This document shows, piece by piece, positions 5,401 through 63,895 of a stretch of DNA of 64,000 bases; position 1 is the first letter of the stretch, and each line of letters starts with the position of its first letter. This DNA is from Vitis vinifera (Eukaryota; Streptophyta; Magnoliopsida; Vitales; Vitaceae): NCBI RefSeq assembly GCF_030704535.1, contig NC_081809.1, positions 1,009,501 through 1,073,500 of the forward strand, in the 5' to 3' direction. A program made the position numbers and the translations under genes. The notes under the pieces were generated by a model. It saw only the letters and a list, made by a program, of their open reading frames with translations. It was not told the DNA's origin and ran no database searches.

Positions 5401-6043
5401 GATTGAGATGGTGGAACTTTTGTTGCATAAGATCCAAACCTTTCAGGTACAAAGGGAGGAGGAAGATAGAGTGGTCTAGACAGCTTCAAATGGTGGCGCT
5501 TTCTCAGTTAAGTCTCTTTATTCTATTTTGGAGCGTGGGGGTTCTTCTATGTTCCCTAGCGAAAGTATTTGGAGGGTAAGAGTGCCTCCAAAGGTAGCTT
5601 TCTTTGCTTGGGAGGCATCCTGGGGTAAAGTCTTAACTTTGGAGCAACTTCAAAGGAGGGGGTTCTCTTTGGCAAATAGGTGCTTTCTTTGTCTATCTGA
5701 AGCAGAAACGGTGGATCACCTCTTACTTCATTGTGTTAAGACGCGGGTCTTGTGGAACCTTCTCTTCTCCCTTTTTGGTGTGTCTTATACTCTTTCGTGT
5801 ACAGTGAATGAAACTCTTCTTAGATGGAATGGAGTGTTTGTGGGGAAAATGTGCAAGAGGGCTTGGCAAATGGCTCCTTTATGTTTATTATGGTCAGTCT
5901 GGAAGGAGAGGAATAAATTAGCTTTCGGGAATGAGGAGTTTTCGCTTCAAAGATTGAAATATTCTTTTGTATATAATCTTTGGTCTTGGGTCAGGGTTTC
6001 CTTAGTTTTGAGCTCTTCTTCTCTTATAAGTTTTTTAGACTAG
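2453..6043 (+). pseudogene. LINE ORF2 remnant: endonuclease, reverse transcriptase, zf-RVT
   Basis: The ORF2 region starts with MKIRILSWNVREAN at 2453 and VVFLQETK soon after, the APE-type endonuclease signature. Reverse transcriptase follows: DKAPGPNGF near 3790, FRPINLVGSLYKLLAKVLANR near 3970, LRQGDPLSPYLFVIAMEV near 4350 and LLFADDTLVF near 4495, so the catalytic FADD box is still present. The zf-RVT segment (RVPPKVAFFAWEA ... CFLCLSEAETVDHLLLHC) is at 5570-5760. No RNase H domain follows. At least eight stops or frame changes occur (for example 2630, 2822, 3148, 4205, 5072, 5363), so the protein is dead. Confidence 0.88.
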
Positions 6044-18612: not shown

Positions 18613-19811
18613 ATGGCTGCAATGGTGCTTCTTCTCGGGTTTTTATTGGCAACCCTTCAGATAACAGGTCTCTCTTCCCTCTCTCCCCCTCTCCCTCTTT
18701 CTCTTTCTCTCTCTCGTTCTCTCTCACTACGTAGTACGTATATAACTTATCTTGGAATAAATGGATTCTTTTCAATGTTGCAGGAGTGAAATCAGTGGGT
18801 GTATGCTATGGAATGCTAGGCAACAATCTACCACCAGCATCACAAGTGGTAGCTCTGTATAAATCTCGCAACATCGACCGCATGAGAATCTACGATCCAA
18901 ATCAAGCAGCTCTTCAAGCCCTTAGGGGCTCCAACATTCAACTCATGCTGGGTGTCCCAAACTCGGACCTCCAAGGCCTCGCCACCAACCCTTCCCAAGC
19001 ACAGTCATGGGTTCAAAGAAATGTGAGGAACTACTGGCCCGGCGTCAGTTTCCGGTACATCGCAGTCGGGAACGAAGTGAGTCCCGTCAATGGAGGCACA
19101 TCACGGTTTGCGCAGTTTGTTCTGCCGGCCATGCGAAACATACGAGCAGCACTCGCATCAGCAGGCCTCCAGGACCGAGTCAAGGTCTCCACCGCAATCG
19201 ACTTAACACTTCTGGGCAACTCCTACCCTCCATCTCAAGGCGCTTTCCGGGGAGATGTGAGGGGTTATTTGGATCCCATCATCCGCTTCCTGGTAGACAA
19301 TAAGTCGCCGCTTCTGGCGAATATATACCCTTATTTCAGCTACTCAGGCAACCCCAAGGACATATCTCTTCCCTACGCTTTGTTCACTGCAAATTCAGTT
19401 GTTGTATGGGACGGCCAGCGCGGGTATAAGAATCTGTTCGATGCCATGCTAGATGCTCTGTACTCGGCTCTGGAGAGGGCCGGAGGGGCGTCGTTGGAGG
19501 TGGTGCTGTCGGAGAGTGGCTGGCCGTCTGCCGGGGGATTTGGGACTACGGTTGATAATGCAAGGACTTATAATTCGAATTTGATCCGCCACGTCAAAGG
19601 CGGGACTCCGAAGAGGCCAGGAAGAGCCATAGAGACTTACCTCTTTGCCATGTTTGATGAGAACAAGAAGGAGCCGCAGTTGGAGAAACATTTTGGGCTT
19701 TTCTTTCCAAACAAACAGCCGAAGTACTCTATCAACTTTTCTGGAGAAAAACCTTGGGATGTGTCTAGTGAAAATGATACAAATGAAGAATCCCTCAAGA
19801 GTGACATATAA
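18613..19811 (+). CDS. Glucan endo-1,3-beta-glucosidase, GH17 family
   Basis: Secreted hydrolase that cuts internal beta-1,3-glucan bonds; family roles are callose turnover and pathogenesis-related defence. Exons 18613-18667 and 18784-19811, with a short CT-rich intron; 360 residues. Residues 1-18 form a hydrophobic signal peptide ([16 protein letters not shown]). The intron near the signal-peptide border is typical of plant GH17 genes. The mature part opens with [13 protein letters not shown]. Catalytic glutamates sit in VGNEV (about residue 116, acid/base) and in the signature [10 protein letters not shown] (about residue 262, nucleophile). There is no X8 domain or GPI tail. A short tail after NFSGEKPW could be a vacuolar sorting extension. 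The start at 18613 is preferred over 18562 because of the TATA position. Confidence 0.93.
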
Positions 19812-33800: not shown

Positions 33801-35460
33801 CCTGTTTGGTGACCTATTCGAAAATTAGGAGAAAATAAGAGGTGTTTGATACCTGCTTTTAAAAATGGTTTTTTTTTGTTATTAAAAATAAAAAACTATA
33901 ATTCAAATTCAAAAACATATTTAATAATTTTTTGACGGACAACTTTGGCCGTTTGGGGACCTATGAAAACAGTTTTAAAGAAAACAAGGATATGTTTGAA
34001 AGATATTTTTGAGAATAATTTTTTGTTATCCAAAATAAAAAAAAAATTAGAAAAATATATTTGATAATAATTTTTTTTAAATAATATATTTTAATTATTT
34101 TTTATTGTTTTTTTTATTTATCGTTTTTATTTGTTTTTTAAAAATTATTTTTAAAATTAATTATACAAACACGTAAAATAATTAAAAATAAAATATTAGA
34201 CATATAAAATATATATTTTAAAATATTAAAAATATTTTAGATTTTCAAACAAATTTTTATTTAAAAAAATTATTTTCAAAAACTGTTTTTAAAAGCAATT
34301 TTTTCAAAATTGTTTTCTAAAATAGTTGCTAAACAAGCTTTATAATTAAAAATAAAAAAAATTATAATTTAAATTGGAAACCACATTTAACAATTTTTTA
34401 ATAAACAAGAACTTTTTAAGAATTTATTATGAGAATAATTATTTTTAATGATTATTTTTAAAAGTAATTATATAAATATAAGGAATAATTAAAAATAAAA
34501 TAGTGTATGTAAAAGTTAATTTAAAAAAATAAGTTGATATCATTTTAAATAAATAAAAAGTTCACAAACAAACCTTAATTTTAAAAAATAAATTTTAAAG
34601 TAAAAACCTGTTTGAAAATTTAGAATATTTTTAATTCATTTTCAATATTTTCAACACTTTTTTTTAGATATTTTTCATATTTACATAATTATTTTTCCTT
34701 AAAAACAAATAGAAACAATATAATATAATTGAAATATATTATAATGGGTCTGGAATATTTTCTAGACTTCTCTTACGATTTGATTTTTCCTTTATTTTTA
34801 TGTATTTGAGACATGATGAAGTGCTTGTTGCAAAAAGTGTACAATGAAAATTCTATATAGAGTGAAGTCTAGTCAATATAAATATTTGAAATATTTATTT
34901 CTATAAAATTGTTAATTGCATGGTTGGCATGAATTTTTCTATTTTAAGTAAATCATCTTCAAGTTTCCACTACAAAGTGTTTTAATAATTTTTTTTTAAA
35001 CTCTATTATTTAAATTATCTTCTAAAATTTTAAAAACAATTTTCAAAAACATATAAAGAAACAAAGTGTTTTGAAACCGATACTAGTAAAGGAAGCCAAC
35101 CCTTTAAAAGGGAGAAAATATCTTAATATATTTATAAATAAGAAATTAGAGTAATTAAGAGGAATATAATATTAAAGGAATGGCACGAGGAGAGAAATGA
35201 AATACTAAATAAAGAAAGAATATAAATTTTATTTTATTTTATTTTATTGAAAAGGAAGTCACGAATATCCGTGTTTTTTTTTTCTTTTCATATTTATCCA
35301 AACAGTAAAAATAAAAATAAAAATAAGAAAAGAATATACAAATGTCAAAGATTTAGCAAATTTGCCACATTTTTCTTATGAAGTTCTCTTACTTTCTTTA
35401 ATTTCAATTGGAAATAATATTTTATTTGGTAAGTCCACTCACTAAGAAGTTTCCTTGAAA
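30835..35460. other. Intergenic AT-rich DNA with MITE fragments
   Basis: No gene recognised. MITE-like pieces: about 31905-32230 (ends with GTTTTCTAAAAACAAATTTTG-like blocks in inverted order) and about 33800-34340 (left AGGCCTGTTTGGTGACCTA, right reverse complement AGCTTGTTTAGCAACTATT). An internal second start near 33948 in the latter suggests nesting. An (AAT)n tract lies near 32368. Confidence 0.5.
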
Positions 35461-35517
35461 GATTCAAGATTTTAGGGTGTCCACCAAACTATTGGATATC
35501 TGGAAGGCCTTATCCTC

Positions 35518-35523
35518 TATAAA
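35518..35523 (+). promoter_or_regulatory. TATA box of the bZIP gene
   Basis: TATAAA in the context CCTCTATAAAGAGC. It places transcription start near 35550 and gives a leader of about 330 bases that includes both uORFs described below. Confidence 0.65.
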
Positions 35524-35679
35524 GAGCATATTTCAGAACTCTCAAAACTTCCCCACCACTCTTCTGGTTTCACCCAGTTCAATCATCAGTTTCGTTTCTG
35601 TTCTTCCTTTTTTTTGTTTTTGTTTTTTGTTTTCTGTTTCTGCTTTTGGTGTTTTTGATTGGTTTCTAAGCTTCTGATC

Positions 35680-35697
35680 ATGAATCCACGTCTGTAG
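35680..35697 (+). CDS. Minimal upstream ORF (5 codons) in bZIP leader
   Basis: ATG at 35680 followed by a stop at 35695-35697, encoding MNPRL. It lies 9 bases before the sucrose-control uORF. Its effect, if any, would be on ribosome reinitiation; nothing beyond position supports a function. Confidence 0.5.
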   Translation: MNPRL

Positions 35698-35706
35698 GAC
35701 TGTGAT

Positions 35707-35799
35707 ATGAACTACACAATCCTCCTGCGTCGGTTTCTTCTCCTCCAGTCCTTCTCTGTGATGTTTCTTTACTGGTTCTACACGTTTTCAGTATTGTGA
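35707..35799 (+). CDS. Sucrose-control (SC) upstream ORF peptide of S1 bZIP
   Basis: A 30-residue uORF ending in SFSVMFLYWFYTFSVL. This matches the conserved SC-peptide of group-S1 bZIP leaders, in which high sucrose stalls the ribosome on the uORF and lowers translation of the main ORF (known for Arabidopsis bZIP11 and relatives). It starts with MNYTILLRRF and stops 85 bases before the bZIP ATG. It is shorter than the 42-residue Arabidopsis bZIP11 uORF, but the C-terminal aromatic core is intact. Regulation here is inferred from that match. Confidence 0.88.
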   Translation: MNYTILLRRFLLLQSFSVMFLYWFYTFSVL

Positions 35800-35884
35800 T
35801 TTGTTTCGTTTCGTTTCGTTTCGTGCTTCTGTAAATTCTAAACGCGGCGTTTTGATTGATCTGAGATTCTGAAACATTGAGAAA

Positions 35885-36349
35885 ATGTCGTCTGCGCAAT
35901 ACGGAAGCGCAGGGTTGAAAGAGAACTCACCGTGCGGAGCGGTTGATGAGAAGAAGAGGAAGAGGATGATCTCGAACCGAGAGTCCGCGAGGCGGTCGAG
36001 GATGAGGAAGCAGCAGCATTTGGACGATCTGATAAAGCGCAAGAGTGAATTGGAGAATCAAAGGCTTGAGATCAAACGAAGGATCGATATGTTCCAGAAA
36101 CTGTGGGAAGCGACTGTGGGGGAGAACAATGCGTTGGAGGCTCTCAAGGCAGAACTCACCAAAGAATTGGAGTCCGCCAAATCTTGTGTCAGTGATTTCA
36201 AAGCGATCGATAGGTTGGAGACGAATTTCGCTGGAAATCGGATGCTGAAGCCATTGATGGATGTCTCTGGAGCTCGAGAGATTGTTCTACAACCATGGCA
36301 GCTTGGGCGCTCATCACAGCCGATCGCTGCTACCATGTTTCAGTTTTAG
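35885..36349 (+). CDS. Group-S1 bZIP transcription factor
   Basis: Intronless 154-residue nuclear DNA-binding protein. The basic region KKRKRMISNRESARRSRMRK spans about residues 23-42 with the invariant N31-x7-R39. A leucine zipper follows with heptad positions L49, L56, I63, F70, T77, L84. The C-terminal end IAATMFQF resembles the short hydrophobic end of S1 members (usually ending in FxC). S1 bZIPs bind ACGT-type G-box or C-box sites, usually as heterodimers with group C bZIPs, and control sugar- and amino-acid-starvation genes. The upstream SC-uORF supports S1 placement. The zipper interior and C-terminus are more diverged than in bZIP11/44/53, so no one-to-one name is given. Confidence 0.92.
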   Translation: MSSAQYGSAGLKENSPCGAVDEKKRKRMISNRESARRSRMRKQQHLDDLIKRKSELENQRLEIKRRIDMFQKLWEATVGENNALEALKAELTKELESAKSCVSDFKAIDRLETNFAGNRMLKPLMDVSGAREIVLQPWQLGRSSQPIAATMFQF

Positions 36350-36507
36350 TACTGACTTAATTTACCTAATCGGTTTAATTTTTAGATTTCTCTCTTAATC
36401 CGACTGACTTCAGTGAATTGGTTTCAGTGAATTGCAGATATCCTCTGCAATCTGCTTCTTCACTGAATTTTGTCCGTACCCGAGTTATAACTTATAACTG
36501 GTTTTAC

Positions 36508-36513
36508 AATAAA
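36508..36513 (+). terminator. Candidate polyadenylation signal of bZIP gene
   Basis: AATAAA about 160 bases after the stop. Confidence 0.5.
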
Positions 36514-37376
36514 GCAAAAATCACAATCATCAACTCCTTCTTCCAAGATTCGAAGATTTACCACCCACTTACACACTTGCACTCTTATATCAAGAAGCCA
36601 CTGTTAAAAGTTTGTTTTGAAGGGTGAGTATGCTTGTAAAAATATACTTTTTCGGTACCCTAATCCATTATCGATTGAACATATACAAAGTGAGATTGTG
36701 ATGTGAACATGAGTATATAAAGATAATTAAAGTTAAAGGTAGTATGAAAAATATGATCATGATACGAAGAAAGAAGAACATTAAAAAGAGAATTTTATTT
36801 TGTTCTCTTTGTAATAGTGTATAGATTGTATATTTTGATTAAGTTGTGCTATGTTTTAGTGGGGAGTTTGATTTTCTTGTTTTCTTTATGCATCTTGTAT
36901 TTCCATCCCACCATGTTTTGTTTGGCACCTTTAATCATATTCTACTTGCATATGTAAAAATAAGAAAATAAAACCCCATTCTCAATATACATATGGGTTT
37001 GACTATATTTTAGAAAAAGGCACCGTCAAGGATGTCATTTGCTCACGCCTTAATCCCATTGTTTTTTGCTTTATATGTGGTTGGACTGTATGGAATGCTT
37101 TATGATGTGATCTCATTGATTTTTTGCCTTAATTTTATTTACTTGTATCAAATCCATATTTGCTTATATTCTTATTCAATATCTAAATTTTATCGTACAT
37201 TTTTTTTACCAGAATTGCTGATTTTAGTCTCATATCACTACCATAATTTTTTCATATATATATATGGATTACTTTTGAAATGCCCAAGAATCCTTATTGG
37301 TTATACTTGAAGTCATTAATAGAACCATGAATACAAAAACTATTTTTTTTCCTCAGCACAAGAGTCTTGAGGAAGG

Positions 37377-37931: not shown

Positions 37932-39961
37932 TTAGCCTTGACTCATGTTCCAAAATTCAACTTCAAGTTCGAGAACCTGTAGTAAAGCCACTTCAGCTCT
38001 TGCTACTACATCTGGCGGGGCCTTCCCTAGATGCCTGTTTGCAATGTTTTGGAGAGAACGGCAGTATTGACCGAAGCCATCGTTGCCCCATCTTTGGCAA
38101 GTCTCTTTTAGTTCAGGGGGAGTTTTGGAGCCATCTTGCAAGCAGAGGGCAAAGCCCTCTTGATAAACAGCTTCAATGGCCCAAAAGGCTGTGATGGCTA
38201 CTGTGTACTCGACCTGCGGGCTCATCAGGCTCTCCAGAAATCTGTAGCACCATGCATACCATTCAATGACCTAAATTGTAGTAGTCAAGCATGTGTTGAA
38301 CAAATTTCTAATGGTGGATACAATTCTTTCTAGTGGTTTGCTTCATATGTTTGTTTTGGAGAACAAAGTGAACATGAACATGTTATCCTAAGCTTTCAAG
38401 CTCAACTCAATTCTTCTCTTTTAAGCTCCTAAATGTTATGCATTTGATTTTTAAGAAGGCGCCTGCATTGTAAATCTATTTTTTATTTTTCTTTATTTTT
38501 TTCTTTCCTTCTATCTTTCCTTTCTTATTCTCTTTTCCTTAGACTATGTTTAGTTCCGAAAATTTTGATAGAAAATATAAGGGAAAGAAAATAGGAAGAA
38601 AAAGTGGAAGGAAAGAAAAAATGAAAGAAAAATAAAAAATAAATTTAAAGTCAATAAATTATTTTTATATACTTCTTCAAACTTATTATCTTCTATTATA
38701 TAAAGATTAAATAATTTTAAAATACATAAATTTTAAACTAATTTTAATTATATTTGATTTTCTTTTGTATTTTAGAAAACTATTTTTCTTAATATTCTTT
38801 TTCTTTCCTTAGTACTTTCCGTGAACCAAGCGTTACACATTTGATTCCTAAGAAGCATGGGTGCTCACATCTTAAATCTGTTTTTAATTTTCTTTTATTT
38901 GTTCTTTCTTTCTACTTTTCCTCTCTATTTAATTTTCTAAAAACCAAGCATAGCCTAACAAGAACTCCCATAGTCACAGAGGAATCAACCAGTTCATACC
39001 TAGTAGACCAGTTACAGTATGGAACTTTCTCAATTGATTATTTTATTAATTGAGAGAATTTTTGCAGACCTTTCAACCCTTCAAAGACACAAATAAACAT
39101 GTATGAGAAACAGACATTCACAGCAATCACCATAATTCCATAGATCAGAGAGTAAATACCTCAAAAGTAAGGAAATTCAAAATACTGAAAGCTACATAAG
39201 ATTGATATCCAGGAGTAGTGTTATGTCAAGAATTTGTACCTGCAATACTCCTGGTTGACCTTCTGAGGAACAATGGTAGATAGCTCAAGTCCCCACTTAG
39301 AGGCTTCTTTCTTGAACCAAGCAATCTCATCATTCAGAGAAGCCATACCACCCAATATGACTTCCATATCAGAACTATTATCCGACTCCTTACAAGCTTT
39401 AAGCAACACACTTGCGGAAAATGGAACAAATGCCCTAACAAATATGTAATCTTGTCCCTGCATTTCGAATTTTCCACGAGGTCAGTGTTCAATTTCTGGG
39501 TTAGGGTTTAGGTTGGTCTAATTTTACTCATCAGGCCCCAAATTGTTTCTGATACGATAAAATTGATGAAGGGAAAATCAATGAGAAAGAATATGAATCC
39601 CTATTGTTTGGTTGAAGGGAAAATGTGATAGAAAGTACAACCGAATACAACATGGTGGAAATTTATTCACTTCGAATCTCCCCACGGAATTTGGAAAAGA
39701 AGAGGGAAAAAAAAATTGTCGGAACAGATTCAAAATATGAATTCATCGGAATGAGACGTTGCAGTGAACTGAAATTTCTTAAACCCCAAATCCAGAAAAG
39801 CAATTACAGAGTAAAAGCGAGAATACCAGCCATCGCTTGAAGGATGAGAAGTCGATGGTTCCATCGCGAATGCTGAGAATCAAAGGATGTTTGGTAGCGC
39901 GGATGTAAAGCATACGGTGCTTCTTCAGCCATGTCTCTATCACTCCGCCGCCTACCTCCAT
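37932..39961 (-). CDS. TENA_E: TenA_E family aminopyrimidine aminohydrolase (thiamin salvage)
   Basis: Exons on the minus strand: 39827-39961, 39240-39457 and 37932-38241 (GT-AG borders, phases consistent), 220 residues. This is the plant TenA_E type (Arabidopsis At3g16990-like). The family works in salvage of thiamin breakdown products, acting on formylamino- and amino-HMP to recover HMP. TenA_E members use glutamate where TenA_C uses cysteine. Landmarks: WLxKHR near the start, [23 protein letters not shown] across exon junction 1, [33 protein letters not shown] and [11 protein letters not shown]. No plastid transit peptide is evident. Length and both intron positions look intact, so it is probably functional. 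Confidence 0.92.
38242..39239. other. Intron 2 of TenA_E gene with a MITE
   Basis: Contains a probable MITE at about 38537-38960. Its left end reads TTAGACTATGTTTAGTT and its right end, reverse complemented, TTAGGCTATGCTTGGTT. Internally there are GGAAAGAAAAA-type purine tracts and their inverted counterparts. No ORF. Confidence 0.55.
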
Positions 39962-41114: not shown

Positions 41115-42909
41115 TTAGAAACTAGCAGTCAATTGGATACGAATCCACATTTCGAGTCCTTTCTTTTCACGTCGAAGGAAATTCCAAGCTGAAAGAGAAA
41201 GAATTGGAGTACCTCTCCACCCAATTAGTAGGCATTTCTGGTTCATATCTAGAGTGCATGAACTCCCACAAGCAAATTCTTTAGCCACCAGACTTGCTTG
41301 GTGCAAGGATGACTTGCTCAGCTCCGTCTCCACCATTCCAAACCGAGCAAAAAACGCCCTCCAAACATCTATCTTCACACTTCTCACCTTCCTTTCGTCT
41401 CCATCAGCTGCCACAATGTTTCTAATTCCATGCCCGAAGTACATATACTCTGTAATACTTCTATTTTCAAATCCTGGTTCAAACAAGCTTCAAGACAATC
41501 GAAGAATGCACTGAAGTAGAAAAGCGCTTCAATGAAACGGTTCACAAAAACCAGAGAATTATGGTTTGCTTCAACTTCACTTACCACCACTACACATGGA
41601 TCAATGCTTCTGATTACTCTCATCAAACACTCCAGCCTCTCCGGCTGTGCAATCATGGCCTCAGCGACGCTGGAGCGTAGACAGCGATTGCTTCATCAGC
41701 CTCTATCTCAAAGAGATCTTCTTTGAGATACAACATGTTTGATACCATAACTAATTTCGAAGAAAAGGGTAAGTTCATGGTCTGCGCAAAGCTCACCAAC
41801 CTTCTACCTGTCTCCTCGATTTTCTGCCTCGATGTTGTTCCAACAGCGGTAATATTAAGAAGCTCAAGGCGGCATTCATACCTGACTGCAAGAGCTGCAT
41901 CAAGATTGTCCACTGCACGCCACTTCTGATTTCGAGATCGATCAAATGAACCCTCTTCGCCTCGGCCGCATTCTCTAGTATGACTTGGATTCCAGTGAAC
42001 CGCGCAACCTGACTGAAAGGAACTTCTTGGTGATTTGCAAGGAGGGTGGGGTTTAAGCCCATCCTTGACTCTTCTGGATCAAATGACTCTTCACTTCTTG
42101 GGGACTTGAATCTGATTCTTCCGGTTTCTCTATGAATCTTCTCTCGAAGAGCTTCAGAGAAGTGGTAAACAACTCTTTGAACTGGATTCCTAGTACTGGA
42201 AGAGAAGTAATCACACTGGTTGAGCATTCTGCTTGCAGCCTCGAATTGTTGATTGACTACTTTCTCAACAGAAGCCAAAAGGACTTCAGCGAGCCTCACG
42301 TCTCTGCTCTCCTCCTCGGAGAGGCCAGAGAAAGAAAGGCCAAATGGATGGCTAAGCATGGAGATACCATCACTGCTTTGGAAAGACTGCATGAACCTTT
42401 CTCCAGCCACCCGCATTACTTCTTCAGTAGATAACCGTCGCCAAGCTGCTTCACTGCTTGCTGTATCATGCTTTGGCTCATTCAGCTTTTCCTCATTCAA
42501 GAGTCTGATCCCACTTCTGTAATTCTTGAGAAGCTCAAGCGAGGTTGAGGAAAATGGGCAGCCCTTCTTCTTCTTAGGCTCAACAAGGTTGGGAATTCCA
42601 GTTGGGGTTCGGCTCGGATTGATCATGTAGTCCTGGCATAATTGAATTGGCTGAGAGACCACATCAAAATGAAGATCATCAAGAAACTCATAATCCAAAA
42701 ATGATTGTTTCTGCTGCTCATCCTCTTGTTGTTGATACTTGGACAGTAGAAACCCTTCATCATCTGCGTTTTCTTGATCGAATCCGAACCCGAAGCCAGA
42801 ACAAAGGTTATCACTGTTGGCTGATTCTCCCCCATCTCCTGCTCCATAAAACTGAGTTTGATTCCCTTTCTTTCTTCCTCCACTGCTTCCCAAAATCGCA
42901 GAACCATAG

Positions 42910-44101
42910 TGATAGAAACCATGATCTACGCAGCGGAAACAAATCATGATGAAACAAGCATGGAGGCAAGCCAAAACCATATGTAAAAGACTGACCTTTT
43001 TCTCTGTTGAAAACGCCCACAATCTCCTACAATCTTCTGCTGTTTACCTTATCAATTTCCGGACTATGATTTCTGAGTGGGCAAAAAAAAACAATAGCTA
43101 GGGTTTTGTCACTCTCTTTTCTGTTTCTAATATACCTCTCTTCGATGGGAACAAGACCGCTTTCTTAGAAACTCTTAAGCGTATAATTTGCTTCAAGAAA
43201 ACCGATATAAGCGTGACTCCCTTTCCCTTAAAATGCTCATTTTAAATAAATTAGATTATCTATTTTTAATTAAATAAAATTTAATTAAAAACTAATCTAT
43301 CATTTATTTAAAACACATAATTCATGTATAGTCCAAACAATTAAGGCACAGCAGGGACCGCAAAAATAAAATTAACAAGGCTACTAATTATAATAAGAAT
43401 TCATACAGGACCAGTATATTCTCATTATAATTAATCACAAATTATACCACTAAAAATTCATGATTGAACTCCTTATTAATTTTACAATTCCATTACATAA
43501 TAATTTATGTTTCCCACGTTAAGATTACAAATGCTATTTACATCAAACAAATTACTGACAATTTATTTGAGTAACAATAGATTTTCAAGATTGTTGCTTA
43601 ACTTAATTTATGTGTCGGATAAAAATCCACCTACAGGGTTAACACTATGAAACCTTATAAGCTTACTTAAAATGCATCATCAATCTCTATACCGAGACGT
43701 GGATTCAATCATTATTTAATACATCGCGAACATAAAGCGTCTTTGTCCAACTCATCAAGTCTTATCGCTCTAATAAATGACACTCACTCTTTAATGAATC
43801 AAAACACAAGACATTTTATATTTGCTCATATTAATTAAATCATGATTAAAAACATAAATCTTATTTCTAATGTCCTAGAGAATATGTTTTAATAGTCAGT
43901 ACAAAACATCCATTCTCTACTTGGTCCAGTTAGTTATATATAAAATATACTAACACAATTATTATTAAATTATGTCGAAAGATTAATTTATCTAATGCAA
44001 ATCTCCAATTAAATACAAAGAAATAATTGTTTATAGAATGACATCATAATAACATACTATTAAATTCACGCTTATGCATGGTTAATAGTATATCTCTATC
44101 A
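42910..44101 (-). repeat. 3' LTR of the young Copia
   Basis: 1192 bases beginning TGATAGAAACCATGATCTAC and ending ATCTCTATCA. It carries the fusion frame that continues into the GRAS coding sequence. Confidence 0.95.
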
Positions 44102-44116
44102 ATCTCCCACTTAGAC

Positions 44117-47100
44117 TTATAACCATGCATCTGCTACTTTAACCCCCATTCCTTCTACATGTCTTTCAAAAGTCGTGGACGATAAGCTCTTTGTAAAAGG
44201 ATCTGCTAGGTTGTTTTCCGATGCAATCTTCATCACCACCACATCACCCCTTTGAACTATGTCTTGTATCAAGTGATACTTACGCTCTATGTGTTTTGCC
44301 CTTTTATGGCTCCGTGGCTCTTTTGAGTTTGCAACCGCCCCGCTATTATCACAATAAAGTGTAATAGGCGATTGAACCGAAGGAACCACACCTAGATCCA
44401 AAAGGAAGTTTCTAAGCAACACAGCTTCCTTGGCTGCCTCAGAGGCTACCACATATTCAGCTTCCATGGTGGAGTCAGCAACACAAGTTTGCTTGATACT
44501 CCTCCAACTAATGGCTCCATCTCCTAAGACAAAAACATTTCCCTAGGTAGATTTCCGAGAGTCCTGATCAGATTGAAAATCTGAATTTGTATACCCTATA
44601 GGCACAAGATTTTTTGACTGGAAAACTAACATATAATCTCTAGTTCTTTTTAAGTACTTGATTATATGTTTAACTGCAGTCCAATGTTCTCTTCCCGGGT
44701 TAGACTGAAATCTGCTTACCATGCCAACAGCAAAACAAATATCGGGTCTAGTACACAACATCGCATACATGAGACTTCCTACTGCAGAAGCATAAGGAAC
44801 TGCCTTCATGCTTTCTATCTCTTCAGGAGTCTTAGGAGACTGATCCTTATATAGAACAATTCCATGTCTAAAAGGTAGAAAACCCTTCTTTGAACCCTGC
44901 ATGTTGAAACGATTTAGAATAGTATCAATATAAAGTACCTGGGATGAGCCTATCATCTTTTTCTTGCGATTTCGCATAAGCTTGATCCCAAGAATATGAG
45001 CAGCTTCTCCCAAGTCCTTCATATCAAAACGCTGAGACAACCAGTCATTGACCGAAGTCAACATACCTATACAATTTCCTATAAGTAGAATATCATCCAC
45101 GTATAGTACCAAAAACACTACCTTCTTACCATTCCACTTCTTATACACGCAAGACTCATCATGACACTGATCAAAACCAAAAGTCTTGATCGTCTGGTCA
45201 AAACAAGTATTCCAAGATCTAGATGCCTGTTTAAGGCCATAAATGGACCTATTCAATTTGCATAGCAAATGTTCTTACCCATTTGTTATGAAACCTTCTG
45301 GTTGCTTCATATAGATGCATTCATCAAGACTTCCATTTAAGAAAGCTGTCTTGACATCCATTTGCCAAATTTCATAATCAAAATAAGCTGCAATGGATAA
45401 GAGAATTCTAATAGACTTAAGCATGGCTACTGGCGAAAAAGTTTCCTCATAATCGATCCCTTCTTTCTGAGTATACCCTTTTGCAACAAGCCTAGCTTTA
45501 TAAGTTTGCACTTTTCCGTCTATAACTCTCTTTTTCTTATAGATCCACTTACATCCAATGGGTTTCACCCCTTTAGGTGGTTCTACAAGTTCCCAGACTT
45601 GATTAGAGTACATAGACTCCATCTTAGATTTCATAGCTACAAGCCACTTATCAGCATCTTTATCTTGTAGTGCATCGTCGTAACATACTGGTTCGGTATT
45701 CACTTCTTCAGGGATTCTATCAAATGCTTCTCCCAAGAGTGTATATCGAACCGGTGGTCGTCTTGTTCTCCCACTACGATGAAGTACTACACGTTGTTCA
45801 ACCACACTTTCATCTTGTTGTGGCTGTAAGGCCGGCAAGTTTATGACTGGTGGGACCACATCCTGTACATCATCAATATGTTCTTCAAACGGCACATGTA
45901 CTGGTGCTTCAACATTTTCTTCATCACCAACAGGCAATGAAATGTCAGAAGTTTCAAATTCCGGTCCACTAACATTTCTCCCACTACGTTGAGGTAACAG
46001 AATGTCAGCTCCGACCATGAATGGTTCAGGTTCATGTTCTGATGGAAAAATTCTAGCTGGTATGGTGTCTCCTCTTAACTCATTTAAGGCTAATTGGCTT
46101 TTGGGAATATGGTTTCTAATATAGTCTTCCTCAAGATAATGTGCATTGGTGCTAACAATGATCTTTTTATCTTTAGGACTATAAAATAAACCATCTTTCG
46201 TTTCTCTAGGATATCCAATAAAAAAACATAATTCTGTTTTTGTTTCCAACTTATCTGTTTTCCCTTTCAACACATGTGCTGGACAACCCCACATCCGAAC
46301 ATGTTTCAGGCTGGGCTTACGTCCAGTCCACAGTTCTGTAGGAGTCTTAGGTACTGACTTAGAAGGAACTAAATTCAGAATGTATGCTGCTGTCTCAATT
46401 GCATGTCCCCAGAATGAAATTGGCAAATCTGAATAACTCGTCATTGATCTAACCATTTCCATAAGTGTCCTATTTCTTCTTTCTACTACACCATTCTGTT
46501 GTGGCATACCAGGTGTAGACAACTGTGAAGTAATCCCTTGTTCTGATAAAAAGCTAATGAATTCCCTAGAGATGTATTTTCCACCACGGTCAGACCGTAA
46601 TGTCTTGATATATTTTCTATGTCGCTTCTCCGTTTCTGCCTTGAATGCTTTGAATTTCTCAAAACACTCAGACTTACGGCGCAATAAGTAAATATATCCA
46701 TACCTTGAGTAATCATCTGTGAATGTCACAAAATACTCAAAACCACCCCTAGCTTGGACACTCATTGGACCACACAAATCAGAATGGATTAATTCAAGAA
46801 CATCGTTGGCTCTATTACCCTTTAAGGGAAAAGGTCTTTTAGTCATTTTTCCTTCTAGACAGGATTCACACGTTGGTAGTGCTTCCACTCTCAATGAACT
46901 CAAAGGTCCATCTTTAACCAACAGAGAAATTCTATCTAAATTAATATGACCAAGTCTCAAATGCAAAAGATAAGTATAGCTCAATTCAATAGGACACTTT
47001 CTTTTCAATGGAGCAACAATATCAAAGTTATTTACTTCAGAATTAGTAAGTTGCAATTCAGGTGTAACTTTAAGAATATATAAACCATCAGTTAAAGAGC

Positions 47101-48292
47101 CAGAACATATCATTTGTTCTCTAAATTTAATAACGACAAAATCATCATAAAATTCATTAAAACAAACAGAATATCCGTTCTTACTCAAACTAGAAACTGA
47201 AATCAAATTCCTTCTAATCGAAGGAACATACAAGACATTCTTTAAAAACAATGTTCTATTATTCTTAAAATTCAAAGCAATGTTTCCTACAGCTAAAACT
47301 GCAACTTCAGTGCCATCTCCCAGAAAAATGTTCACTTCCCCTTTACTTAGCTGGCGTGTTTCCTGAAACCCCTGCAATGAATTGCAGACATGATTAGTGG
47401 CTCCTGAGTCTACACACCATTGGTGTGTAGTCAACACCGCTAAACAAGTTTCAACAACCAGTAAATGAAAAGGAGATGTACTTTGCTTTTTCTTGGCTAG
47501 CCATGTCGGACATTGTAGCTTCCAGTGACCAGGTTGCTTGCAGTGAAAACACTTACCTTTCGGTTTTTTCACAACACCATTTACACCATTAGCAGCACCA
47601 TTGTTGTTCGGCTTAACATTTTTCTTTTTCTTACCTTTTTTCTGGACAGATGAAGAAGCTCGCTCAATGTTAAGCACAATAGGTGCAACTCCTTGCTTAA
47701 TAATAGTCTCAGCAGCTACCAGCTCATTCAGCAATTTAGACAGAGTAAAATCCATTTTATTCATGTTATAGTTCAAACGAAACTGCTGAAAACTGGGAGG
47801 CAAAGTGTTCAAGACCATCTCAATCTGAGTAGCCTTGTCAACTTCAGCACCTAGAACCTCCATGTCATTCAGAAGACTCATCATCTTCAAAACATGAGTT
47901 CTTACTTGAGTTCCTTCCTCCATTTTAGAAGTCAGGATCTCCCTTAGTGCGTTCTGCCTTGCTGCACTAGTTTGGTCTCCAAACATCTCCTTGAGATTTT
48001 ATAAGATGTCATAAGTTGTATCCATTTTCTGATGCTGATGTTGCAAAACATTTGACATAGATGCCAAAATGCAACATCGCGCCATCTCATCAACTTTAAC
48101 CCATTTCTGGTGAGCCTTAATTTGATCTTGAGTGGCACCTTCACCGGGTTTTTCAGGACACACTTCACTGAGCACAAACTTATATTCTTCTGCAGTAAGC
48201 AAAATGTCCAAGTTTCTTTTCCAATCAATATAGTTAGGACCCTCAAGCTTGTTTTGGGTTAGGATATTGGCTAAGGGATTGAAAGATGTCAT
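44117..48292 (-). pseudogene. Copia gag-pol polyprotein with three in-frame stops
   Basis: One continuous frame of 1392 codons, broken only by stops near 47999, 45272 and 44543. Order: gag from MTSFNPLANILTQNKLEG; zinc knuckle CFHCKQPGHWKLQC near 47550; protease WCVDSGATNHVC near 47400; integrase HHCC plus D,D,E segment (HSDLCGPM, TFTDDYSRYGYIYLL, LRSDRGGKYISREF, NGVVERRNRTLMEMVRSM); reverse transcriptase (KWIYKKKR, QMDVKTAFLNGSLDE, YVDDILL near 45100); RNase H (MEAEYVVASEAAKE, CDNSGAVAN). All catalytic boxes are present, but the stops prevent full-length Gag-Pol. Confidence 0.93.
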
Positions 48293-51940: not shown

Positions 51941-53125
51941 GGCGTGGGAGTTTACCACTTTGCCCAGTGCCGAGTCTGCCGACAGTGAGTGCTAGTACTG
52001 TGGATTTAAAGTTTAAACTTCATTAAAATATTTGTTGTTTCTATACTATATAATAAAGCTGGAGATGCAATTTTGTTGTGATTGTTTTTGAACCTTATTT
52101 GACTTTTCATACTAAATTTTATTATTAGACTTCTTCAAGAATGTTTTCATATTAAATTTTGTTGTCAATATGTGTGATTATGAACTTAATTCATTGAGCT
52201 CTGTTGCTCATTCTCTAAATTGGATTTAAAGTTGGTTGAAAATCAATCATAGCTAAGTAGGAGGCCAATAAAAAATTAAATGAATAAATAAATACATCTA
52301 ATCTCTATCTATTAATCTCATTTTACACGGTTATATAATCAAATGCACATTTTCCATTGGTATCATAGTGGGTCAAAACCATTTCCCAATCCCAACTTTT
52401 CTTTGGAGGATTATGAAACCACAAAGAATGGACTCTTTCATTTGTTATCCACCTTTCATCAATAAAAATAACAAACGCCAAAGGAAATTCAAGAAGAGAT
52501 TTTTTTTTTTTGCATATAATGTCAAATGAAAAAGTTTAAAGCCAGTGAAGTTTTGTGTTCACCTCCATTGGTTAATAAAATTTTTTTAAGGGTTTTGGAT
52601 GGTGTTAAGCCTAAAGAAGAATGAGATACATAAGATAATTCAAATAAAGAATGTAAAATGTTAAAGCCTTATACAATATTAATTTTTAGTGTGAACAATC
52701 CTGATGAGTTTTGTTACCATTAGCAAATCAACAAAAATGTCTAGAATATACTTTTGTCATTAAATGAAAAAAAAAAAACCCGAGTGCCGAACCACTATAA
52801 ACCCGAGTTTGAATTCTCTAACTCTATCTCTTTCCTTTATTTATTTTGTGCATATATTATTGTGTGAAAAAAGTTTTTGAAAAACCCAATTCACCCCCCT
52901 TTTTGGGTATTTTCCTTAATTATTCATAGTCTTTGTTTTATCAGGATCAAAACATGCTTGTTATAATGATGGTTGTTCCTTTAGATAAATTTACCAATTG
53001 ATATATGATTGTTATAAATTGTTGATGACTTGATTATAAATCATTAAATGGTTGATGACTTCCATTCTCTACGTTAATGTGATATTTTTGTTTCTAATTT
53101 CAGTAATTTGATAGAGAAATAAAAC
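51941..53125. other. 5' untranslated/intron region of hAT transposase gene
   Basis: AT-rich with no coding signal; probably the leader intron. A TTTCAG acceptor-like site lies at 53098-53103, some 20 bases before the ATG. Confidence 0.45.
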
Positions 53126-55238
53126 ATGGAATCAAACTTGACTCCATCCTCTGGTCAAGATTCAACTACCAATTCTCAATCAACTAGAAGTAAGATCGAT
53201 CCTGCATGGGAGCATGTTTTTGAAGAAAGATATGCAAATGGAAGGAAAGCTCTTATTTGTTTGTATTGTAAAAAGATTACAAAAGGTGGGGGTATTCATA
53301 GAATGAAACAACATCTTGCTGGAGTGAAAGGAGATATTGGTCCATGTAAATCGGTTCCTCCAGATGTAAAATTTCGAATGGAAAATTCTTTGCAAGAGTT
53401 TGTGAATTCTAAGAAAGCAGCCCAAGAAGCATATGAATGTAGAAATCCTTATGGTCCTAATGTGTCACAATTTGAAAGGGATGGGGCAGAAGGTGAAGAA
53501 GAGGTTCAACAAATGCAAAGTCCTATGGCAGCTAATAGTGGAAAAAGGAAAAAATCAACAGTGGATAAGTATTTTGCACCAAGAAATACTCAAGGAGCTC
53601 AACCTTCCATGAGGAGTGTACTAGCTGGGAAAGAATCTATTTGGAGAGCGGATATGGCGGTTGGGAGATTCTTTTATGATGCATGCATTCCTACTAATGC
53701 AGTGAATTCCTTCTACTTCAAGCCAATGTTGGATGCTATATCTGCAATTGGTCCTGGATATAAGGGTCCAAATTACCATCAACTACGGGTTAATCTTTTA
53801 AAGGATGCCAAGAAGGAAGTTCAGTTACTTGTGGACTCTTATCGTGCAATTTGGGCAAAAGTTGGGTGTACAATAATGGGTGATGGTTGGACAGATAATA
53901 GACAAAGAACACTCATCAACTTCCTTGTGTATTGTCCTGAAGGAATATCATTTGTGAAATCCGTTGATGCTTCAGACATTGTCAAGGATGCAACTAATTT
54001 GTTTCAGTTATTTGATGAGGTGATTGAATGGGTTGGTCCACTCAATGTAGTTCATATGGTCACTGATAATGCAGCAAATTATGTGGCCGCGGGGAGATTG
54101 ATTTCTCATAAGCATAAACACATTAATTGGTCACCTTGTGCAGCTCATTGTCTTAATTTGATCTTTAAGGATATTGGTAAGATGGACCATGTTGCTGAAC
54201 TTGTAAGACGTGCATCAAAGGTGACAATTTTTGTGTATAATCATGTTGCTTTGTTAAGTTGGTTGAGAAAAAGAGAAGGATGGACAGAGATTCTGCGACC
54301 TGGTGCAACTCGCTTTGCTACTACTTTCATTGCACTCAAGAGTCTTCATGATCATAAACATGACTTGCAAGCTTTGGTGACTAGTAAGTTCTTTGTGGAC
54401 TCTAGATATTCAAAGGATTATAAAAGCCAAGTTGCAGTTTCCATCATCTTGGATAATAGATTTTGGAATGATTGTTTGATTGTTGTGAATCTTATGTCTC
54501 CACTAATGCGCTTATTGCGTATTGTTGATTGTGATGAGAGGCCTTCGATGGGATATGTGTATGAAGGCATGTATAGGGTTCGTTTGGGCATCAAGAAATT
54601 GTTTAACTACAACAAAAGACTATACAAGCCTTATACGGATATCATAAAGCAACGTTGGGATCAACAACTGAAGAAAAGCATTCATTCAGCAGCTTATTGG
54701 TTGAATCCATGTTTCCAATATGATCAGGAAAACTTTTGTAATAAGCCAAATGTTATTGGAGGTGTCATGGATGTTATTGATCAGAAAGTTCTGAAAGGCA
54801 AGCTTGAAACAATGAATGAAATGAAGTTATTTCGTGATCGATTGGGAAGTTTTGGAAGAAAACTTGCTTATTCTTCACGTGAAGTACTTCAACCTGGTAA
54901 AATATTATTATCATTTATTAGTATGTTTATTCTTCTTTATTAGTTACCTATTTATTATTTAATATTTTAAACTTGCTAATGTGTTTTATTTTTTTCTTAT
55001 TTTTAATGCGAAATGGTAATTAGATGAATGGTGGAGGCTACATGGATATAGTGCACCACATTTGCAAAAGTTAGCCATTCTAATATTGAGCCAAACCGCA
55101 TCGTCTTCTGGATGTGAGAGGAATTGGAGTGTCTTTGAACGTATACATACCAAAAGAAGGAATAGATTGGAACATCAAAGGCTTAATGATCTTGTATACG
55201 TTCATTATAATTTGCGCCTAAAAAATCGATATAAATGA
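53126..55238 (+). CDS. hAT transposase (BED finger, DUF659, hATC), altered 3' end
   Basis: Exons 53126-54896 and 55024-55238 give 661 residues as sequence now reads. The BED zinc finger (ALICLYCKKITKGGGIHRMKQHL) spans about residues 25-75. The DUF659 catalytic core has GDGWTDNR and VHMVTDNAANYV (first two acidic residues). The hATC dimerisation part SSGCERNWSVFERIHTKRRNRL supplies the glutamate. Two further exon-like frames (55308-55486 and 55581-55687, an acidic tail) would join if the donor at 55229-55230 were GT, but it is AT, so translation runs to a stop three codons later. The core is open, so activity is possible but untested. Confidence 0.88.
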
Positions 55239-56918: not shown

Positions 56919-59900
56919 ATGGCAGAGGACAAGTACAATCTGAAGAACCCAGGTGTGAAGAGAATTTTACAGGAAGTGAAGGAGATGCAATCGAATCCTT
57001 CCGATGATTTCATGAGCCTCCCTCTTGAGGTTCGCTTCCCAAACCCTAACTTCGATTTCGAAATTTTAAGATCTTTTCTTCTTCTGCTTCAATTTGGATA
57101 GAAATCATGGTTCTTTTGGCTGATTTCTGCAACGACCCATTTTAAATTAGGGTTCCGTGATTTTATTTTGGTTATTTTAGGTATTTAGGAATAAGCCACA
57201 ATTGCTTGATTTTGTTTAATTTTATTCCGTGATTTATGCTTTTCATTATCTATGCTTTCCTTTTATTTTCGTTGAGTCTTAGATATAAAAATGGACTGGT
57301 GGCTTATTCCTAAATACCTAAAATAACCAAAAATAAAATCAAAATAAAATCACGGAACCCTAATTTAAAATGGGTCGTTGCAGTTTCTTTACTTTGTTTG
57401 ATTTGGGGTGTTGAGTAGTTGTTGGTAGATGGGAAATGTGGAGTGTTTGGTTTTGATTTTTTATTTCGATGTGGCACGCAATTAGGGTTTTGATTCTTTG
57501 ATTTCAACTCATTTTATGTCGAAATCTGTGTTATTATAAATTTTTTTTTATGAATTTGCCTAAATTTTAGATTACCAATTTTGCAATTCAACACAAATTT
57601 GTGAAGAAGCAAGAACGACGAAATCAATGAGACTGATATCTGGATTAGTATGAATTTTCGTGTTTAGTTGATGAGGGAGGATAAAAATTAAGGACATTGG
57701 GAGATTCAAAATGAGATTGCTTGAAGTCCCAGTTACTAGATCTAGGTTTAGGTTTTCCCAGGCTGAGAATAGGGATTTATGTAACTAAACAAGCTGGATG
57801 GAGACTGAGTGTTCATGTTGCCGACTGCGAATTGGTGGGATCAAGGGCTTTGTTGAGTGAGATGAGTTGATTTCTATACAAATAAAATCATGGACTTGGT
57901 ATTTTGTTTGGGATTCCATTGCAATGTGCATGAACATTTCATAAAACACCTGAATATCATGTATCAAACTTGTAAATACGTTCTGTGGTAATGACTTTAA
58001 CACGAATTAGTTTTTTTTAGAATGGATAAAGCGGTGACAAGGTTCTGATCTCTATTAATGATTCTGCTCTGTCTCTCAAAATCAACAACTATGCCAACTC
58101 TCATATATCACAAAATCCCTTGAAAACTTACCTGTAATCTCTAAAACTCTAATTCTCCCTAAATTTTCCATGCAACTACTCCAATCTCTTTTAATTGTGG
58201 GTGCACATATGCTGTGTACTGCCATCTTTAGTGTGTGTGTGTATCCTCACAAAGGGGAGCTTGATCTCTTTTGAGTGATTGCAGCTTGATGATCAATTAT
58301 TTGTTTCTTTTTGTTTGTTGATTTTACTCTTAATGGAAAGTTTTCATGATAGGGAACCATGTTTAATTGTTGAAATTTTTGTTTTGAATGTGAATTAATT
58401 TGATGCGCATAATATGATTATGTTCAATGTCTCTAATTGTATGCTTTTGGTTTATGTTTTCAGGAGAATATATTTGAATGGCAATTTGCAATCAGGGGAC
58501 CCAGTGATACTGAATTTGAGGGAGGCATCTATCATGGACGGATCCAGTTGCCTGCAGAATATCCGTTTCAGCCTCCTTCATTTATGTTGTTGACTGTAAA
58601 ATATCTTCCCTTAGAAAACTCTATCATATTAACTTGCTTTTTCTTTGTTTTGGTATGTTCATATGTCATATTATTTATTTTTCTCTTAATATATTGCTAT
58701 TTACCTATCAAAAAAATATTATATTATTTATTAATTTTTAGGATTGTATATGGGGTTTGGTTTGGTTTGTAAATTTTCATTTATATTTCACTTGAAACTT
58801 TCCATTGTTGAGATTTTCTAATCAAGTTTTCCTGCCTTGTTTCAGCCAAATGGTCGTTTTGAAACCCAAACCAAGATATGTTTAAGCATATCAAATCATC
58901 ATCCTGAGCACTGGCAGCCATCATGGAGTGGTAAATTCTTCTATTTCTCTTAATGCTTTCTGGTGACTAAAAATTATGTCTTGACATCATAGTATAACCA
59001 TGATTTTGATTGGGGAGAAGTGAGAACTATTGCCATGTTGCCTTCTTGGTTATTTAATGCAGCTGATTAAGGGTTTTTTATTTTAGAAACTACTAAAGCA
59101 ATCAAAACAGCACAAATTGTACACATGTGAAGCAGGGTTGCCAAATGCATTCCTTTACTTGGATTGTGCTTTGGCCTTGGCTGTTCATGGTTGTTTAGGA
59201 TTTTTGACTTGCTATAATCCTATCCTGAGTTTTGGGAAACAATTGTCCCAGCTTTAAGCCACATAGGGCCTGTCTGGTCTCAATTTATGGTCCCTTCTTT
59301 TTGTGGATGGAAGCGAACACAGTTTGATAAACTTTGGAGTGGGCCAGTCTCAAAGAAGCCTTGTAATATCTTAGTGCCACCACATTTTAATGGTTTTGCC
59401 AACAGTTGGAACACATTTTTGTTCTTTTTTATTTACTATGGGGCCAGGAACTGAATAAATTAGTATTTGGAATTATACTTGAAGAGAACAGCTGTAGTTT
59501 AATTGATTAGACGGAAAACTTTGAAACTAGTACCAGGACCTGTTCATGCTTTTGTTGTTTAGGGAAATAGGCTGCTTCTAGTCTTCTATCCTCTTGGAAA
59601 GCATGGGCAGGTCTTTGAAAAACTCCAGTTGCTTAGCAAAGTTGTTAATTGTCATGATAAAATGAGCTTTGTATGCATCTAAGCATCTTTTATGATCAAC
59701 TTCGGACTGGGTACTTGTAGTTTAATATGTAAGTCTGCTGTATGTGCTGTGTTGTGTTGTTGTTGGCAGTTCGGACTGCTTTGGTAGCATTAATTGCATT
59801 CATGCCCACCAGCCCAAATGGTGCATTGGGTTCATTAGATTATAAGAAGGAAGAGAGGCATGCTCTGGCCATCAAATCTCGTGAAGCAGCTCCAAAATTT

Positions 59901-60601: not shown

Positions 60602-61264
60602 GACCTTCTATGGATGTTACAGGAAAACCCCTCTACCTCTTTATGTAAAGGTCAAACTCCTGTCGTCACAAACTGTCTGTAGTTTTCATTCTTTTCTCTA
60701 GTTTTTAGTAATGGAAAACACCAGGATGCCAATTTAGAAATTAATATTCAATTGACACCCAGCAATAAACTCAACCATTAGCCAACAACATTGACTACAG
60801 CCCAACAGAAACGTGTCCTCTCTTCCTTTTGAAAGTCGTATCATTTTCAAGTTCTCATTTTTGAAAATGAGAATTTTCTTGATGTATTCACTTGAATCGC
60901 CATCCTTCTCTCATCCAATTCCTGATCAATGCTCATTCAATTCATGGTGGCAGGTGGTCGGTATTGGCTGCTGTCTCTCTCTCTCTCTCGCTCTCTATAA
61001 TGAAGGGAAAAATTGATGGGTGCTCCACCAATAAAACCAGCCAAAAAGAAATAAGAAAATGAGGCAATGAGACGAGGCTGAGAAAACAATATTTTGAAAT
61101 TACAGTTGATGAAAAAGGCGAGGTGGCCCCCATCATTAGCCTCCAAAGTCATCTAACCTTCCCAAAGGATGTTTGAAAAAAAGAGGCTAAGACACGGAGC
61201 ATATTTCATTCTACCCAAAAGCCTGAACTCCATTCTCATCCACTTTCTCAGACCATCTCCACAA
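60602..61264. other. Intergenic/promoter DNA before the CRK gene
   Basis: Contains a (CT)n tract at 60973-60998 and no other recognised feature. An upstream in-frame ATG at 61169 would extend the CRK N-terminus by 32 residues but would bury the signal peptide. Confidence 0.5.

Positions 61265-63895
<2,631 letters not shown>

Follow-up and report, generated by a model that had tools for sequence, protein, structure and literature searches.

The closest described systems to the locus considered here are the sucrose-control (SC) uORFs in the leaders of AtbZIP11 and other S1 bZIP genes, catalogued as conserved-peptide uORF homology group 1 (HG1). A ribosome translating the AtbZIP11 uORF reportedly stalls at the stop codon, as the title of a 2017 FEBS Letters paper has it, and the weak start context of the SC-uORF is said, in the Rahmani 2009 abstract, to let ribosomes leak past. 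The uORF2 of AtbZIP11 comprises 42 residues (PMC2738917), while the SC-peptide itself is given as 28 residues (PMC8795868). According to the text of PMC4960570, Ser29, Ser31, Leu35, and Tyr39 of uORF2 are required for sucrose repression, and the position of the termination codon is described there as an invariable feature in angiosperms. A pair of arginines is also reported to be conserved in SC-uORFs (PMC7470447). Gymnosperm SC-uORFs, whose stop lies elsewhere, nevertheless repress under sucrose in Arabidopsis cells (PMC4960570), so the position of the stop does not define the SC-uORF family as a whole. Whether SC-peptides sense sugar directly or act through other machinery is described as unclear (PMC4960570).

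That grape possesses SC-uORFs is already known. Vitis vinifera is listed in the legend of Fig. S2 of PMC3310857, Figure 2 and a supplementary table of PMC8795868 are said there to cover grape, and the text of PMC7106846 assigns 43 grape uORFs to known families, reporting the recovery of HG1 with the species unstated. A first-pass annotation of the DNA analyzed here, which held that such frames are usually missed, overstated the case, as SC-uORFs are a catalogued family in which grape is named in print. Base edits of a strawberry SC-uORF raised fruit sugar (PMC7470447), which gives a practical use to knowing which grape copies are controlled by sucrose.

Organization of the Leader

The window analyzed here, a stretch of 64,000 nucleotides of the V. 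vinifera genome (C5:1009501-1073500), contains on its plus strand an intronless ORF for a 154-aa bZIP protein, probably VvbZIP14 (35885..36349; Pfam bZIP_1, 8.1e-08), that is preceded by two uORFs. The first is the 5-codon frame MNPRL (35680..35697, plus strand; ATG at 35680, TAG stop, A at -3), and the second, in the same reading frame, is a 30-codon uORF (35707..35799, plus strand; ATG at 35707, TGA stop) with its genomic position at C5:1045207 (+). The latter translates as MNYTILLRRFLLLQSFSVMFLYWFYTFSVL (30 aa) and carries the residues essential in AtbZIP11 as S15, S17, L21, and Y25, together with an arginine pair at R8-R9. The coordinates and peptides of both frames, and the 9-nt gap from the end of MNPRL to the SC start, stand as they were first annotated. 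Four ATGs occur in 35450-35890, at 35680, 35707, 35761, and 35885, of which the one at 35761 is in frame with the SC-uORF and encodes the Met of SFSVM. The main ORF lies in another frame from the two uORFs, with its start 187 nt beyond MNPRL and 85 nt beyond the SC-uORF stop. The spacer between that stop and the bZIP start includes an error-free GTTTC x 4.4 tandem repeat (35803..35824, plus strand) that could alter reinitiation if it is variable in length.

Transcription probably starts near 35550, with both uORFs inside the mRNA, as suggested by a TATAAA at 35518..35523 (plus strand), a likely TATA box, near which GC per 100 nt climbs from 0.18-0.30 to 0.33-0.43. This is the last of five TATAAA in 34885-35885 and says little when taken singly, the motif being frequent by nature in the local AT-rich DNA. 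The predicted 5′ leader deduced from it (35550..35884, plus strand) is about 335 nt long, similar in length to the tbz17 leader, which is given as 358 nt. At the other end, a polyadenylation signal-like AATAAA (36508..36513, plus strand), the sole AATAAA in 36350-36900, would put the transcript end near 36530. The implied transcript of ~982 nt matches in length the VvbZIP14 gene (878161-879142; PMC4023599), both of its ends being estimates that were set after the 982-nt span was known. It is very improbable that transcription of the leader departs from this picture, with the uORF falling outside the mRNA or being spliced out of it. TATAAA is common enough in AT-rich DNA to leave room for such an error, but the coding constraint amid many silent changes described below speaks against it, as does the agreement of the length predicted from TATA and AATAAA with the VvbZIP14 span, even with ends placed post hoc.

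In-frame splicing of the SC-uORF to the bZIP ORF, through the GT after Ser28, was considered and set aside. The predicted RNA fold of the leader (35550-35899) is no stronger than that of shuffled sequences (z +1.09), and no Rfam match in the 64-kb window reaches the gathering score.

Elsewhere in the window, Pfam assigns a GH17 glucanase (18735-19811, +), a TENA/THI-4 protein (37932-38267, -), a GRAS protein (41793-43043, -), a ubiquitin-conjugating enzyme (58437-58772, +), and a Stress-antifung domain protein (61157-62029, +). The next gene number, VIT_05s0077g01150, is named in parts of the literature where glucanase is mentioned too, as a co-mention only. Mobile-element remains are found at 3524-6043 (+), 44117-47998 (-), and 53123-54940 (+), and include copia-like polyprotein pieces and reverse-transcriptase-like ORFs recognized by eye, as well as a hAT-like ORF with a BED finger and DUF659 (Pfam).

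Relationship to Other SC-uORFs

Judged by its residues and its relatives, the 30-codon uORF is an SC-uORF by descent. AtbZIP11 uORF2 was compared through its published residue numbers rather than its letters, and S29, S31, L35, and Y39 correspond to grape S15, S17, L21, and Y25 with the same spacing and a single offset of 14. Subtracting the 28 residues of the SC-peptide from the 42 of uORF2 gives the same offset, and the grape Met1 thus corresponds to the AtbZIP11 internal start. A six-frame search of the window finds a single SFSVxFLYWxY motif, and none of 100 order-1 Markov simulations of equal length contains one, whereas the bare SxSxxxLxxxY pattern is not significant there (3 observed, 3.21 expected). 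The simulations with the longer motif and the existence of five sisters together rule out the 30-codon frame as a product of chance, homology to the sister SC-uORFs being, on the alignments, a stronger argument than motif statistics. Among solved structures, no sequence matches the SC peptide at E up to 10. Four short SC-peptide cores gave no match in the literature text, and a search of prokaryote contigs for relatives of the bZIP gave 31 pattern matches, none of them confirmed.

The assembly (495.6 Mb, 21 contigs) yielded five sister SC-uORFs, on the contigs designated C3, C4, C7, C14, and C18, and a bZIP ORF follows each of them. Those on C3, C4, C7, and C18 were recovered by peptide search; the C14 copy was missed there and found by position, that contig having been examined because the table of PMC4023599 names chr14. 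All five sisters accordingly means the five found, and the genome may hold further diverged copies. Alignment of the uORF with its homologues, which the first-pass annotation had proposed as a check, was run on the six grape copies and has ten columns invariant in all of them: M1, S15, F16, S17, V18, L21, Y22, W23, F24, and Y25. The Val-to-Met difference that was first noticed is confirmed at residue 19, which is Met in the C5 copy and Val in every sister. Residue 26 is Thr only in the C5 copy, with Val in four sisters and Tyr in C3. The short N-terminus that had been read as distinctive is real in so far as the longer start is absent from the C5 copy, whose in-frame ATG further upstream soon runs into a stop, but it is not peculiar to this copy, since the C7 and C14 SC-uORFs are likewise without a longer start.

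The closest sister is the C7 SC-uORF, whose peptide is 68% identical to that of the C5 copy, both being without the 41-aa form; it differs in having 28 residues, a stop within TCATGA, and T at -3. The C14 SC-uORF (C14:1023752, -) has 27 residues and ends in VTP; the arginine pair is lost from it, and its first half is shorter by one residue. All the sister leaders but that of C14 have a TCATGA at +83 from the SC start, where the TGA that stops the SC-uORF overlaps an ATG in another frame; this ATG resembles a third uORF and is absent from the C5 copy and C14.

The C5 gene is probably VvbZIP14 (VIT_05s0077g01140 in PMC4023599), as its protein length of 154 aa, the lack of an intron, and the chromosome (chr5) agree with that entry, although the strand does not. 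VvbZIP14 is placed on the minus strand at 0.88 Mb of chr5 in PMC4023599 and is found here on the plus strand at 1.05 Mb, for which a local inversion or an assembly difference is suggested. The sister genes correspond in the same table to VvbZIP07 (C3; chr3, 157 aa in both), VvbZIP13 (C4; chr4, 157 aa here and 249 in the table), VvbZIP22 (C7; chr7, 145 aa in both), VvbZIP37 (C14; chr14, 145 aa in both), and VvbZIP47 (C18; chr18, 154 aa in both). Over the six contigs, chromosome agrees with the table in all cases, length in five, and strand in five, which marks the genome as that of grape or of something very close to it. Membership of the S1 group is tentatively suggested by pairwise scores with the sisters and by the ortholog list given for VvbZIP14 (PMC4023599); in pairwise comparison with Arabidopsis sequences, the C5 bZIP scored higher with AtbZIP53 than with AtbZIP44 and AtbZIP1.

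Selection on the Peptide

Between the C5 and C7 copies, the 28 codons compared differ by 11.2 nonsynonymous changes over 64.8 sites and 10.8 synonymous changes over 19.2 sites, which gives a Ka of 0.196 and a Ks of 1.051 (p 8e-4 by Fisher test, counts rounded), and the contrast is found again in codons 15-28, with 3.2 nonsynonymous changes over 33.3 sites and 6.8 synonymous changes over 8.7 sites (p 1.4e-4, likewise with rounding). In comparisons with C3, C4, and C18, silent change has reached saturation across the 28 codons; C14 was left out of the test. On these counts the SC peptide is under purifying selection since duplication, with both branches pooled. Alongside the essential residues and the five sisters, this pairwise constraint upholds the original identification of the frame as an SC-peptide. 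A pairwise Ka/Ks averages two branches, and a recent loss of function could escape it. Within codons 15-28 there is no nonsynonymous difference among C7, C4, and C18, which places the approximately three core replacement changes relative to C7 on the C5 branch, and the C5 core is by this comparison evolving faster than the cores of these three sisters. The main bZIP has also diverged, with 59 of 141 residues identical to the C7 protein.

A Displaced Stop Codon and a Stronger Start Context

Two features of the C5 copy were overlooked by the first-pass annotation, a displaced stop and a stronger start context. The stop lies at Tyr+5, as against Tyr+3 in all five sisters and, by arithmetic from published numbers (42 minus 39 = 3), in AtbZIP11 as well. 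From the key tyrosine the C5 copy reads TAC ACG TTT TCA GTA TTG TGA, in which two added sense codons, GTA TTG (Val29 and Leu30; 35791..35796, plus strand), stand between Ser28 and the stop. None of the five sister SC-uORFs has this Val29-Leu30 extension, and a six-base insertion ahead of the stop would explain the displacement. The stop position described as invariable among angiosperms is thus not the one found here, and the C5 copy, which its alignment places in the SC-uORF family by descent, departs from a feature that is called invariable. An extended stop is not mentioned in the literature text that could be searched, published alignments being figures that lie outside such a search.

The stall could be weakened by the moved stop, by analogy with AtbZIP11, given that the stop position is described as invariable in angiosperms, is kept in all five sisters, and is reportedly where the AtbZIP11 ribosome halts. 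An extension of this argument, possible though on balance unlikely, is that sucrose control has been weakened or lost through the displaced stop and the changes in the core, and that the bZIP now escapes the repression expected for its sisters. The stop is displaced in the C5 copy only, among six, Met19 and Thr26 are peculiar to it, nonsynonymous core changes relative to C7, C4, and C18 sit on its branch, and its main bZIP protein has diverged, all of which would fit such an escape, as would a stall said to occur at the stop codon (the 2017 FEBS Letters title). Silent change, however, far exceeds replacement change relative to C7, most clearly in codons 15-28, the four essential residues are all retained, and gymnosperm uORFs with another stop position work (PMC4960570).

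The SC start has G at -3 and A at +4 in the C5 copy, and T at -3 and A at +4 in all five sisters; by the scheme set out in PMC3020687 these contexts class as moderate and weak, respectively. The weak start context of the SC-uORF family is therefore not found in the C5 copy, where G in place of T at -3 would let fewer ribosomes leak past the SC start. A translated uORF tends to reduce translation of the main frame, and together with the purine at -3 this could be taken to mean that the uORF represses the bZIP by mere translation, peptide and sucrose having no role. Such an account is decidedly improbable in view of the constraint on the peptide and its membership in a family with peptide-dependent control.

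The Upstream Frame MNPRL

The first-pass annotation had singled out MNPRL as an element that could change how often ribosomes reach the SC-uORF, but the frame does not emerge as special. Its peptide has no counterpart in any of the five sister leaders, and shuffling the C5 leader yields a uORF that ends between -20 and +10 of the SC start in 30% of cases (20-54% across the six leaders). That the ATG of MNPRL arose by chance and has no function, a question separate from the SC-uORF, is somewhat the likelier reading on these two grounds, though each of the six leaders has a uORF whose end falls between -20 and +4 of the SC start, a comparison made post hoc in which three cases amount to one similar uORF. 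Those three are the leaders of C3, C4, and C18, whose 17-residue uORFs resemble one another and end 19 nt ahead of the SC start; the C14 leader has a 7-residue uORF ending 20 nt before it, and the C7 leader, unlike that of C5, has a 10-residue uORF of its own that overlaps the SC start, ending 4 nt into it.

The 17-residue uORF of C3, C4, and C18 reads M-x-N-x-x-x-L-x-F-E-x-H-V-S-x-x-Q and extends from about -73 to -19 of the SC start. It overlaps the longer SC start, ends ahead of the internal start, and may itself be a conserved peptide.

A role for MNPRL in bypass is plausible from its spacing even if the frame is at chance level. On a simplified AtbZIP11 leader, reinitiation took place in wild-type Arabidopsis when the spacer was at least 50 nt long (PMC3020687), and by that requirement most ribosomes finishing MNPRL would pass over the SC start, with a restart at the bZIP open to them.

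Predicted Regulation and Comparison With Known Systems

The reading preferred here, at a probability of roughly 0.6, is that the C5 SC-uORF, of the S1 bZIP kind and in the leader of the probable VvbZIP14, still represses the bZIP at high sucrose. From the computed anatomy, homology, pairwise peptide constraint, stop position, and start context, the course of translation, stalling, sucrose response, and bypass would be as follows. Scanning ribosomes would translate the 30-codon frame, and at high sucrose the nascent peptide, its SFSV-FLYWFY core lying within the exit tunnel, would halt the ribosome close to the end of this uORF and so block scanning to the bZIP start 85 nt downstream. At low sucrose the ribosome would terminate, or some ribosomes would skip the uORF, and the bZIP would be made. 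MNPRL may let a minority by, 9 nt being too short for a restart at the SC start and 187 nt sufficient for one at the bZIP. A grape Ribo-seq data set exists (PRJNA903951).

With the core placed as in the sisters, the A site would contain the sense codon GTA and not a stop, and the stall would then be an elongation stall at GTA, or would tolerate a two-residue shift, or would be weakened. Tolerance is favored by the gymnosperm SC-uORFs that repress in Arabidopsis cells with another stop. The main doubts about function come from the reported stall of AtbZIP11 at its stop codon, known here from a title, and from the faster change of the C5 core. A more specific version, in which stalling is parted from termination by arrest on GTA and bZIP output owes more to ribosomes that reinitiate past MNPRL than to leaky scanning, is doubtful; its preference for reinitiation follows from the purine at -3 of both upstream starts. 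If true, it would signify an angiosperm SC-uORF that works without the "invariable" stop position. In a single genome, a natural displaced stop beside five sisters with the usual one offers a test of whether the stall needs termination or only the peptide in the tunnel.

Two-uORF reinitiation leaders, in which a short uORF lies before an inhibitory one, are known from GCN4 and ATF4. The resemblance of the grape leader to these is one of working alike only, the reinitiation role of MNPRL being putative and the gap to the second uORF 9 nt. The nearer comparison is with the SC-uORFs of AtbZIP11 and the S1 group, which the C5 copy matches in its essential residues and their spacing, the position of the internal start, the arginine pair, a bZIP ORF downstream, and a spacer of over 50 nt; it differs from them in a stop two codons later and in the residues at 19 (Met) and 26 (Thr), both of which are Val in most grape sisters. 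The S1 SC-uORFs of Picea abies and Pinus taeda, as described in PMC4960570, also lie off the usual angiosperm stop position and are without the two serines that the C5 copy retains.
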